This document shows positions 8,006 to 42,322 of a stretch of 42,386 nt of DNA, one piece after another. Numbering within the stretch: the first letter of the stretch is position 1; the number at the start of each line of letters is the position of its first letter. The translations under genes were made by a program, and so were the position numbers. A model generated the notes under the pieces. It was not told the DNA's origin. It saw only the letters and a program-made list of their open reading frames with translations, and searched no databases. Location: assembly GCA_016871255.1 (NCBI GenBank), contig VFZH01000017.1, forward strand, positions 1 through 42,386, read 5' to 3'. The DNA is from Acidimicrobiia bacterium (GTDB lineage: Bacteria; Acidobacteriota; Vicinamibacteria; Vicinamibacterales; UBA2999).

Positions 8006-8372
8006 GCTGGTGCGCGGCCGCGCGCTCGGGACCCGGGATCGCCATCAGATCCGGATGGGCGTCCACGTGCGCCTTCACAATCGCCTCGGCCTGCGCCATC
8101 GCGTCGGCATCACCCAGGCGATAGATCGTGTTTGCCTCGATGAGGTCCTTCTGGCTCTCCGGCGTCGAGTCGTGGCTGTCGTAGATGGCGGCGACCGGGC
8201 AGGCCGGTACGCACGCGCCGCAGTCGATGCACTCCTCGGGATGGATGTAGAGCATGTTGGCCGTTTCGAACTCCGGCTCGTCCTTCCGCGGGTGGATGCA
8301 GTCGACCGGACACACGTCCACGCAGGCGGTGTCCTTCGTGAAGATGCACGGGTCTGTGATGACGAATGGCAT
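8001..8372 (-). CDS. Seven-iron (3Fe-4S/4Fe-4S) ferredoxin
   Basis: A 123-residue protein starting MPFVITDPC. The frame is open a further 92 codons upstream, but that part has no ferredoxin character. The first cluster motif is [18 protein letters not shown], where the long Cys-x7-Cys spacing is typical of the 3Fe-4S site in seven-iron ferredoxins. The second is [17 protein letters not shown], a classical 4Fe-4S motif. The last 45 residues are an acidic and helical tail. It is a soluble electron carrier whose partner is not indicated by the neighbours. No good Shine-Dalgarno sequence precedes the ATG. Confidence 0.88.
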
Positions 8373-8636
8373 GCCGGAGAGCTTAATACAAGAGGCGCCC
8401 ATTGTGCATCTGCCGGCTGCCGGGCGCGCACACGCCTCGCCGGCGAGCCCGCGAATGGCGCCGCCGGGTACGTAGGATCTACCGCGGCCGTGCCCGATCG
8501 GCGGGCGGCCGGGCGGCCGCTCCGCCACATCCCCCACGGTCCGGGACGCGCGTCCAAGTGACCGCCTGACAGCGATATGCACGGGGGGGCTCTGGTCCTC
8601 GGGGCCGACGGCACGTCGGTTGCTGATCCCCGGTAC

Positions 8637-8921
8637 ATGCCGACACATACCATCATTCGCACCGGGCTCGGCGTGCTCGTGGCCGAGGCGGTGGGGTGCG
8701 GCGAATCACCGACCAGGCCGACACCGCTTCCATCCGTCTCGGGAAACTGGACGGACGCACTCGAGTCGTCCAGCAACAGCGCACGCGCCGTGGACGTGAG
8801 CATCTCGCAGGCGGGGAACTCCGTGGCGGGCACGTGGGTCAACCAGTCGTCCGATTGGAACGGGACGATCGGCGGCACGATCAGCGGTACGACGTTCACC
8901 GGCACGGCAACGCTCAGGTGA
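8637..8921 (+). CDS. Small putative lipoprotein, possibly truncated
   Basis: Ninety-four residues from ATG 8637. The N-terminus ([21 protein letters not shown]) looks like a weak lipoprotein signal ending in a lipobox-like AVGC, with Cys21 as the possible lipidation site. The mature part is Ser/Thr/Gly-rich and alternates short strands ([40 protein letters not shown]), like the beta-rich repeats of secreted acidobacterial proteins. It stops abruptly after TATLR, 58 bp before an intergenic repeat, so the C-terminus may be lost. No function can be assigned. The start could also be further upstream at 8577. Confidence 0.4.
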
Positions 8922-8979
8922 ACGTCACCCGGGTTTTCGGGATCGTGCAACGGCGTTCCCGCCGGGGTCCATTCCCGCC

Positions 8980-9049
8980 GGGGTCTGACCCGGGTCAGAC
9001 CCGGGTCTGACCCCGGTACGCAGTTCCTGCAACGGTGTGGAAAAGCCGG
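8980..9049. repeat. Triple-palindrome repeat, copy 1
   Basis: The core at 8980-9014 is three back-to-back 11-base units: GGGTCTGACCC, GGGTCAGACCC, GGGTCTGACCC, with an extra G and C at the ends. A tail follows that begins GGTACGCAG and contains GGTGTGGAAAA. The tail is shared, with scattered changes, with copies at 9842 and 12439. This copy lies just upstream of the mgtE-like gene. Confidence 0.85.
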
Positions 9050-9115
9050 CCGGCAAGGTCGGCGGTGCTTCGCGGAGGCGACACTCCTGACACGCAGGTT
9101 GGTTCGGCCGACCGC

Positions 9116-9129
9116 GACGAGGAGGGACG
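9116..9129 (+). promoter_or_regulatory. Strong ribosome-binding site for the MgtE-like gene
   Basis: The sequence GACGAGGAGGGACG directly precedes ATG 9130. The near-perfect GAGGAGG at ideal spacing fixes this start, which matters because the protein is much shorter than usual MgtE. Confidence 0.75.
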
Positions 9130-9837
9130 ATGGACTTCGCGATTTACGGCACCGCATTGACGGCGACGCTGGACAGCCTGATCGGATCCGCGCGCGTGTT
9201 CCTGCCGAGCCTGCTCGGCGCGCTGGCGCTGCTCCTGGGCGGCTGGCTGCTTGCGCACCTGTTGCGGCGGCTGGCCACGCGGCTCAGCCGCGACGAACGC
9301 GCGCTGTCGAAGGTGTCCTTCGCCGTGCGCCGCCGTCTGCCGTGGCTGCACATCAACCTGGGGACCGCGTTTCTCGCCGCGGCCGTCGTCGGGCTGTTCG
9401 ATGACACCATCGCGCAGTTCACCGCGCTGGCCGTGTTGCTGCCCGTCGTGGCGGGGCAGTCCGGCAACACCGGCGCGCAGGCGCTGGCGGTGACGATGCG
9501 GGGGCTGGCGCTGCGCGAAGTGCGCCCGCGGCAGTGGCTGCGCATCGCGTTCAAGGAGAGCCGCGTCGCCCTGATCAACGGAGTGGCCGTGTCGGTGACC
9601 ACCTCAGCCGGCGTCTGGCTCTGGAGCCAGTCGCCGGGGCTGGCGCTCGTCATCGGTCTGGCGATGGTGATCTCGATGCTCGCAGCCGGGCTGGCCGGCG
9701 CCGTGATCCCGATTCTGCTGACCGTGTCCGGTCAGGACCCGGCGCAGGCGTCCTCGATCATCCCGACGACCGCCACGGATGTTGTCCGGTTCCTGAGCCT
9801 CCTCGACTTGGCAGCCGTGTTCGCCAGCCTGCTGTGA
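9130..9837 (+). CDS. Minimal MgtE-type divalent cation transporter (membrane domain only)
   Basis: A 235-residue integral membrane protein. From about residue 72 it matches the MgtE membrane domain: RRLPWLHINLGTAFLAAAVVG, VLLPVVAGQSGNTGAQ, MRGLALREV, and the final DPAQASSIIPTTATDVVRF. The middle motif carries the conserved pore region (GNxGxQ). It lacks both the N-terminal superhelical domain and the two CBS domains that gate ordinary MgtE (about 450 residues). Instead the first 50 residues hold one hydrophobic helix followed by an Arg-rich stretch (LLGGWLLAHLLRRLATRL), in the style of the TM helix before MscS-like channels. It is predicted to carry Mg2+ or a related ion across the inner membrane, without the known cytosolic Mg2+-sensing gate. 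Repeats flank it on both sides. Confidence 0.75.
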   Translation: MDFAIYGTALTATLDSLIGSARVFLPSLLGALALLLGGWLLAHLLRRLATRLSRDERALSKVSFAVRRRLPWLHINLGTAFLAAAVVGLFDDTIAQFTALAVLLPVVAGQSGNTGAQALAVTMRGLALREVRPRQWLRIAFKESRVALINGVAVSVTTSAGVWLWSQSPGLALVIGLAMVISMLAAGLAGAVIPILLTVSGQDPAQASSIIPTTATDVVRFLSLLDLAAVFASLL

Positions 9838-9841
9838 CACA

Positions 9842-9907
9842 GGGGTCAGACCCGGGTCTGACCCGGGTCTGACCCCTGTGCTCAGAATCTGCGTACGTGT
9901 GGATGGC
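9842..9907. repeat. Triple-palindrome repeat, copy 2
   Basis: The core at 9842-9876 is GGGTCAGACCC, GGGTCTGACCC, GGGTCTGACCC with flanking G and C, identical over 35 bp to the core at 12439-12473. The tail is more diverged but keeps AATCTGC and GTGTGGA. It fills the space between the mgtE-like stop and the converging peptidase gene and may serve as a terminator for both. Confidence 0.85.
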
Positions 9908-9909
9908 GG

Positions 9910-10782
9910 TTACTCGTCCCATGGGTCCCAGGCCTCGCGCCGCTGGACGCGGCGACGGATGACGATGGCGAAGGCGAGAAAGGCGAGCAGCATGATCGCG
10001 GTCCACAGCGCGCCGCCACTGGTGACGACCGGAATCCAGGCGATCCAGTCCAGGTAGGGCTGCCAGGCGAGCGCGGCGGCCTGGGCGGGCGTCTGTCCGG
10101 TGTGGCGCGCGAAGGCCATCGGAAACGGAAGCCCGCGGGCCACGTCGTCGGCAATGGCGCCGGGCACCGCCGGTCCGGCGCGCTCACGCACGCTGGACAC
10201 GAGTGCCGCGGACAGCAGGTACGCCCGCGTCAGGTTGTCTGCGGCCGCGGACTCGAACATCTGCTCCACGACCGGCAGCCTGGCCTCGCGTTCCGAACTC
10301 AGTAGAAGCCGCATGCCGGCGACCCATCCCCAATCCTGCTCCACCGAGGTGGCCACCCCTTCGTGAAACCACCGTGGCAGGTGCCCGCCGTCCGCCTGCG
10401 CGGTGAGGGCGGCGTGTGCGATCTCGTGCCAGACCACGGCTTCGAGCGACCCGTAGGGATAGGGCCCCACGCGGCCGGGAAAGATGGTGATGCGGTCTGC
10501 ACCAACCGCTAGGCCAGCCACGCGCCGCGGCGCCATCGTGGCGCGGACGTCCGCTTCCGCGACCAGCGTGACGAAGATTCGCGGCGGCGGTTGAAGACCT
10601 GCGCGTGCGAGCGCCACGGCGAGCGCCGTGCGATCGATGCTGCGGACCCGCTCGGCCTGTTCCGCCAAAGGGGCCACGGCGTCCACCTCCAGGTCGATCG
10701 CAGGAGGTTGTGCCCGGACGCCACACCCGGCAGCTGCGCACAGCACGGCTGCGATGGCCGCGCACCGCACGGCGACACTCAC
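9910..10782 (-). CDS. Membrane-tethered HExxH peptidase (peptidase MA-like)
   Basis: A 290-residue protein with an N-terminal lipoprotein-type signal ending AAAGC (Cys19), then a domain containing VVWHEIAHAALTAQ and, 20 residues later, WFHEGVATSVE. HExxH plus a downstream Glu in a WFHEG context is the zinc-ligand pattern of the peptidase MA-like family. The C-terminus has one membrane helix (about 252-272, ending FAIVIRRRVQRRE) and a short acidic tail, so the catalytic domain should face the periplasm. Its start overlaps the stop of the LuxR-type gene by 4 bp. A protease coupled to a membrane regulator suggests, but does not prove, proteolytic signalling. Confidence 0.7.
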   Translation of the reverse strand: MSVAVRCAAIAAVLCAAAGCGVRAQPPAIDLEVDAVAPLAEQAERVRSIDRTALAVALARAGLQPPPRIFVTLVAEADVRATMAPRRVAGLAVGADRITIFPGRVGPYPYGSLEAVVWHEIAHAALTAQADGGHLPRWFHEGVATSVEQDWGWVAGMRLLLSSEREARLPVVEQMFESAAADNLTRAYLLSAALVSSVRERAGPAVPGAIADDVARGLPFPMAFARHTGQTPAQAAALAWQPYLDWIAWIPVVTSGGALWTAIMLLAFLAFAIVIRRRVQRREAWDPWDE

Positions 10783-12438: not shown

Positions 12439-12508
12439 GGGGTCAGACCCGGGTCTGACCCGGGTCTGACCCCGGTACGCGGATCTTGCCAGGGTGTGGA
12501 AAACCGGG
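12439..12508. repeat. Triple-palindrome repeat, copy 3
   Basis: The core at 12439-12473 equals the 9842 copy exactly. The tail (GGTACGCGGATCTTGCC...GTGTGGAAAA) is closest to that of copy 1. It abuts the stop codon of the DUF5916 gene and may act as its terminator. Confidence 0.85.
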
Positions 12509-41968: not shown

Positions 41969-42322
41969 TGGTGGAGGCGGCGGGAGTCGAACCCGCGTCC
42001 GAAAGTCCGTCCCCGCAGGACTCTACATGCGTGTCCACCTCTGGAATCTCGCGCCCGGCGTGAGGAGGCGGCGAAAACCGCCAGGCGCCAGACCCGGCAG
42101 ATCTCGCCCCCGGACGCCGGGCCGCCGTCCGGAAACCAGCCTGTTTGATGACGTCCGACCCCCAGCCACCAGGCGAGGCCGGGGCGGACGCTCACAGCTT
42201 AATTAGGCTGCGAGAGCGTAGTTGGTATCCGCAGTTAACGGATGTCCCATCGGTTTAACGAGTCAATGGAGCTCGGCATGCATCCCGCGACTCTGAACCC
42301 CCGTCGAAGCCGTATCGCCCCC
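41969..42322 (-). ncRNA. ssrA: tmRNA (transfer-messenger RNA)
   Basis: The 5' end GGGGGCGATACGGCTTCGAC is the canonical tmRNA start, and the 3' end GGGTTCGACTCCCGCC...CACCA is the T-arm and acceptor with encoded CCA. The acceptor pairs GGGGGCG with CGCCUCC (one G-U). The tag frame at 42232-42203 reads A-D-T-N-Y-A-L-A-A-stop (GCG resume codon, TAA), preceded by TTAACT. The ALAA end is the proteolysis signal recognised by ClpXP. The RNA rescues ribosomes stalled on broken messages. The 354-nt length is normal for one-piece tmRNA. Confidence 0.95.

Follow-up and report, generated by a model that had tools for sequence, protein, structure and literature searches.

A bacterial MgtE pore fronted by a PF05552 helix and bearing an altered fifth transmembrane helix is probably a channel that has been rewired or crippled

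A 42,386-nt stretch of a draft bacterial genome (the window) carries, at 9130–9837 on the + strand, an ATG-initiated ORF of 235 aa in which a PF05552 helix is fused to the five-helix pore of the MgtE Mg2+ channel. A channel with such a front and such a changed TM5 is probably not an ordinary MgtE, but a rewired or crippled one. The parts of the gene and its near surroundings are as follows.

8980–9017 (unstranded): upstream palindromic repeat, 38 nt, 95% complementary to the downstream repeat
9120–9125 (+): AGGAGG, Shine–Dalgarno-like, 4 nt 5′ of the ATG
9130–9837 (+): whole ORF, PF05552 helix plus MgtE pore (Pfam, TIGR00400)
9130–9285 (+): residues 1–52, added N-terminal segment with an MscS/CmpX-type TM helix (PF05552 at 24–52)
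9286–9336 (+): residues 53–69, part of the Arg-rich loop; homology to full-length MgtE starts here, after the missing plug helix
9337–9732 (+): residues 70–201, pore TM1–TM4, conserved as in relatives
9733–9834 (+): residues 202–235, TM5, with departures P212, R220 (kink Gly435), L224, D226, and A229 and with Asp217 (Asp432) retained
9839–9876 (unstranded): downstream palindromic repeat; the genome has 58 exact copies of its 17-nt core

An in-frame TGA at 9088–9090 lies 13 codons 5′ of the start, so that the ORF has no longer in-frame form. Together with the position of the AGGAGG motif, this bears out the proposal of a first-pass annotation, made from the sequence of the window, that the ribosome-binding site is strong and the short form genuine. 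Neither a sigma-70 promoter nor a terminator was found on scanning.

Pfam assigns residues 104–225 to MgtE (PF01769; E = 3.7e-29, 102 bits against a curated cut-off of 27.6) and residues 24–52 to PF05552, "Mechanosensitive ion channel, conserved TM helix" (E = 6.7e-7, 29.5 bits against a cut-off of 22). Up to E = 10, the 235-aa protein has no Pfam match to CBS (PF00571), to MgtE_N (PF03448), or to the MscS pore and beta domain. The TIGR00400 equivalog profile is covered only from position 273 to 446 of 450 and scores 108.9 bits, below its cut-off of 232.75, and the solved T. thermophilus MgtE pore construct (PDB 4u9l) aligns to residues 68–229. These three comparisons confirm the architecture first proposed, a pore without N and CBS domains behind a new front. 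Given its TIGR00400 score and its domain content, the fusion protein falls outside the MgtE equivalog family. The GNTGAQ and DPAQAS motifs are both present, and Pfam finds a single MgtE stretch rather than two motif sets. The added helix and TM4 are prominent in an uneven hydropathy scan, in which the remaining segments are partial, and the predicted structure is of low confidence (mean pLDDT 51.3, from an alignment of 8 sequences).

The plug helix, which connects the CBS domain to TM1 in MgtE, is missing as well, and homology begins after its position. Where the plug region ends, the close relative L052 has QTMVGASKEERALSKVSFAVRKRLPWL and the fusion protein has RRLATRLSRDERALSKVSFAVRRRLPWL. 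Since homology to close relatives begins right after the plug, the join is placed directly after the plug helix, the end point of which is our reading of the domain limits in the available sections of PMC5882242. The junction lies just past the plug helix in every close relative read. It preserves the reading frame, coincides with a domain boundary, and lies within a 42-kb contig, and the base composition by codon position is similar on either side, which argues against unrelated pieces having been joined in silico. Such a chimera is improbable, although the genome is a draft of 243 contigs and the join is absent from other genomes among the matches listed.

The missing domains were not found in the upstream frames scanned. 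The + strand frames at 8010–8561 and 8577–8918, which made up the upstream domain scan (the + strand frame at 8696–9010 was left out), have no N or CBS match. The only MgtE_N match of the genome lies on contig C103, in a separate and ordinary MgtE that is split across two contig ends (C103/C27) and has MgtE_N, CBS-type sequence, and the usual TM5. With the ORF opening only 13 codons before its ATG, the scanned frames negative, and MgtE_N confined to C103, an upstream frame encoding the N or CBS domains, which the first-pass annotation had named as the finding that would overturn it, is rejected.

PF05552 is short and hydrophobic, so a chance match was a concern and its specificity was checked across the genome. 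Only three matches occur in the whole 3.9 Mb, one in the fusion gene and two within a single 241-aa protein on contig C73 that has no other Pfam family. A query made of the N-terminal 58 residues retrieves a protein from 6 of 58 other relatives. The alignments of two such proteins (L089 and L090, 221 aa) to the N terminus are near-colinear, start a few residues from the Met, and show 40–42% identity; PF05552 is the sole family in L089, L090, and L092, those scanned by Pfam. The specific matches and the near-colinear alignments indicate that the N terminus resembles the first ~50 residues of a PF05552-only protein. For such proteins we use the label "CmpX-like", which we take by analogy. The PF05552-only proteins (221–241 aa, in relatives and on C73) are alike to the fusion protein in these residues and differ in the remainder, which in the fusion protein is an MgtE pore without a second PF05552 copy.

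The earlier suggestion that the first ~50 residues look like the TM segment preceding MscS-type channels thus stands, the PF05552 match being above its cut-off and specific within its own genome. The likeness to MscS-type mechanosensitive channels is limited to this helix; their pore and beta domain are lacking. A Mg2+ pore regulated by membrane tension or lipid, with the PF05552 helix as the sensor, would fit the family of the helix, which is that of mechanosensitive channels. However, the MscS pore domain is absent and we know of no lone PF05552 helix that confers tension sensing, making this proposal very unlikely.

A search with the whole protein finds a match in 54 of 59 genomes of relatives, in at least 134 of 162 genomes of the order and, at E ≤ 1e-25, in at least 134 of 193 genomes of the class, in 85 of 396 genomes of a phylum sample, and in 11 of 41 genomes of the class of G484. 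Among the matches listed from these five sets, only the fusion gene itself aligns from residue 1. The other alignments listed start at residue 45 or later, except those of G160 and G161 (residues 28 and 29; loci L084 and L085), which are long proteins bearing CBS-type sequence. In the species-wide collection, 7 of 7 loci begin their alignment at residue 52. None of 98 matching plasmid records and none of 15 matching phage records reaches 80% query coverage, and a scan of viral_contigs found no relative. A PF05552 helix on an MgtE pore is found nowhere else among the matches listed from the genomes, plasmids, and phages searched. Since the fusion is known from one genome only, its own conservation cannot be judged.

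The closest relatives (64–74% identical) include L052–L054, L062, L063, L005, L041, and L042 from the same phylum and L034–L039 from Gammaproteobacteria. MgtE_N, CBS, and MgtE are all found by Pfam in 6 of 6 close relatives (L053, L054, L062, L063, L034, and L005). The possibility that the first 50 residues are a standard part of MgtE, likewise raised at the outset, is rejected, because the close relatives start at residue ~52 and the listed homologues at 45 or beyond (G160 and G161 being the long CBS-type proteins). L034 and L035 come from records titled Klebsiella pneumoniae MAGs and carry the same MgtE subfamily; in the pore tree they group with uncultured Gammaproteobacteria, so the species titles are possibly wrong.

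Candidate short forms in other genomes were rejected. The short frames (194–334 aa) in G121, G072, G027, G191, and G374 all reach contig ends, and a 226-aa frame in G113 (contig C246) opens within a CBS-like stretch and by eye lacks the added helix. This check left out the broken frames of G031:C43, the short ones of G029:C12 and G013:C59, and divergent frames of 329–342 aa (27–29% identity). Separately, divergent MgtE-pore matches lie within open frames of 837–1239 aa in G039:C44, G041:C168, G060:C115, G068:C4, and G069:C332; these may be further unusual fusions, or merely long frames in GC-rich DNA.

The fusion gene stands alone, with a ferredoxin-type gene upstream on the opposite strand. 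Directly upstream, a 114-aa frame (8577–8921, +) has no Pfam match and by eye is of a small exported or lipoprotein type. Downstream, a 290-aa frame (9910–10782, −) has no Pfam match and by eye contains an HEIAHA motif as in zinc peptidases. The palindromic arrays that bracket the gene are composed of GGGTCTGACCC and GGGTCAGACCC, and a third array lies at 12440–12472. The 17-nt core found at 58 places occurs at none when read in reverse. The palindrome looks like a dispersed REP-type repeat, and the two flanking arrays may have helped the rearrangement. At the far end of the window there is a complete tmRNA (41969–42322, −; 180 bits).

The pore itself was compared with 74 relatives, after removal of own-genome, contig-edge, divergent, or repeated loci (L001–L004, L076, L079–L081, L083, and L087) and of sequences sharing an identical C-terminal part. 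Among 55 columns that are at least 90% conserved in the 74, the fusion protein departs at four (E91D, G220R, F224L, and G226D). Column 220, where the fusion protein has Arg, is Gly in 71 of 74 relatives and Ser in the other 3. Columns 224 and 226 are Phe and Gly, respectively, in 74 of 74 relatives, and Leu and Asp in the fusion protein. Against 21 close relatives, conserved columns are changed at 6 of 22 in residues 202–235 and 2 of 69 in residues 53–201 (Fisher p = 0.002), a comparison of TM5 with the rest that was framed post hoc, once the changes had been noticed. The same test against all 74 relatives is weaker (3 of 14 and 1 of 41; p = 0.047). The ratio of TM5 divergence to that of the rest is 1.34 in the fusion protein and 0.43–0.84 in the 21 close relatives, and the next most altered TM5s (L057 and L058) have changes in 3 of 23 columns each. 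The first-pass description of a protein that "keeps the whole pore domain" is accurate as to length and TM1–TM4 but not for TM5, where invariant or near-invariant residues are altered.

Residues 53–201 retain 67 of 69 conserved columns, with both departures conservative, and third-position differences exceed those at first and second positions. This part looks normally constrained. GC content by codon position is similar in the N-terminal part, the pore, and TM5. In a tree of residues 53–201, which does not resolve the sister group, the terminal branch of the fusion protein is 0.16; the branch is 0.33 once TM5 is included.

The changes in TM5 could be read as early decay, in which a fusion remnant is no longer selected and TM5 erodes first. 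Decay would also alter TM5, here non-conservatively at invariant sites; the fusion is absent from other genomes among the matches listed, and dispersed repeats lie on both sides of the gene. However, the 235-codon frame is intact and has a good ribosome-binding site, and the changes are unevenly spread, the conserved columns of residues 53–201 being nearly all kept. We regard decay as a doubtful explanation, but a serious one.

Residue equivalences in T. thermophilus numbering were worked out here through the 4u9l alignment: Arg220 corresponds to 435, Asp217 to 432, and Gly109 and Gly112 to 325 and 328. Asp432, kept as Asp217, is the selectivity residue of MgtE. The glycines at the TM2 kink are likewise kept, as Gly109 and Gly112. 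In the Mg2+-free cryo-EM structure of T. thermophilus MgtE, kinks are described in TM5 at Gly435 and in TM2 at Gly325/Gly328, and the substitutions G325A, G328A, and G435A almost abolish the rescue of Mg2+-auxotrophic E. coli (PMC8104411). In the available sections of that report, Ala, not Arg, is the only substitution tested at position 435, in T. thermophilus MgtE. The same work gives Asn332 and Asn424 as residues of the cytoplasmic gate (PMC8104411). Their equivalents in the fusion protein are Ala116 and Ser209; because most relatives having the N and CBS domains also lack those Asn residues, the fusion protein does not stand out in this respect.

These assignments bear on a further possibility, a constitutively open, Mg2+-insensitive channel with a working pore that has lost feedback alone. 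The sensing domains and plug are absent, the selectivity Asp and the TM2 kink glycines are retained, and deleting the MgtE N domain reportedly shifts the channel towards its open state (work of Hattori cited in the available sections of PMC3435302). Nevertheless, Arg stands in place of the kink glycine at 435, TM5 has lost two invariant residues, and even G435A left almost no activity in the T. thermophilus protein (PMC8104411). An open leak is thus rather unlikely, a little more so than decay. Both are close rivals of the reading preferred below, and tension regulation and an assembly chimera are less likely than either.

The fusion protein can be set against three kinds of known MgtE. Full-length bacterial MgtE (T. 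thermophilus type; the subfamily of L052–L054, L062, and L034) shares the five-helix pore, the PX6GN and GNTGAQ motifs, and Asp432, with up to 74% identity over residues 53–228. Unlike it, the fusion protein lacks the N domain, CBS, and plug helix, has an extra TM helix, and carries substitutions at the kink glycine and at two invariant positions of TM5. Relatives of MgtE without CBS are known, namely archaeal MgtE and metazoan SLC41, which have two motif sets (available sections of PMC9276622). They resemble the fusion protein in having an MgtE pore without CBS and differ from it in having two motif sets rather than one. To our knowledge, they do not carry the PF05552 helix. Engineered truncations (the transmembrane-only 4u9l, 4u9n, and 8h5e, and N-domain deletions) are, like the fusion protein, pores minus sensing domains, but they are man-made, have no added helix, and leave TM5 unchanged. 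A literature search by title found no description of an MgtE/PF05552 fusion. CBS-less MgtE and cut-down constructs are already known, and a bacterial MgtE pore in which PF05552 replaces the sensing half is new at the level of that search.

Our tentative preference, at somewhat less than even chances, is for a genuine fusion of one lineage, in which Mg2+ feedback is gone and the usual opening is impaired, giving a low- or non-conducting MgtE-like protein that is perhaps paired with an ordinary MgtE. By gene fusion, the pore of a full-length MgtE, cut off just behind the plug helix, would have acquired the N-terminal part of a small PF05552 membrane protein (CmpX/MscS-type). If the Arg-rich loop (residues 46–69) is cytoplasmic, the added helix would place the N terminus outside, replacing the cytoplasmic domains and leaving the orientation of the pore unchanged. 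With the N domain, CBS, and plug absent, the CBS/plug route by which Mg2+ shuts the pore would be lost. The Arg at the TM5 kink would impair the usual opening motion, making ordinary opening unlikely. The product might modulate the cell's ordinary MgtE.

That "gating must differ", as the first-pass annotation argued, can be deduced from what has been published on the absent domains. The annotation assumed an otherwise intact, differently gated channel, and the substitutions at the kink glycine and at two invariant TM5 residues make ordinary conduction doubtful, so that functional inference is only partly supported. A more elaborate reading is that the PF05552 helix took over control of the Mg2+ pore from the sensing domains and that TM5 changed in step, its kink glycine becoming Arg and an invariant glycine farther down that helix becoming Asp. 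The pore would then respond to membrane tension, lipid state, or a partner MgtE rather than to cytoplasmic Mg2+. We consider this a long shot.

The opening, selectivity, and Mg2+ feedback of MgtE have so far been dissected with truncations and mutants of the T. thermophilus protein. In the fusion gene, evolution seems to have removed those same gating parts and changed the glycine that the mutants had flagged, all in one protein. A working gene would mean that exchanging a single helix is enough to re-gate a Mg2+ pore; a non-conducting fusion protein would be a candidate, supplied by nature, for a silent partner of MgtE.
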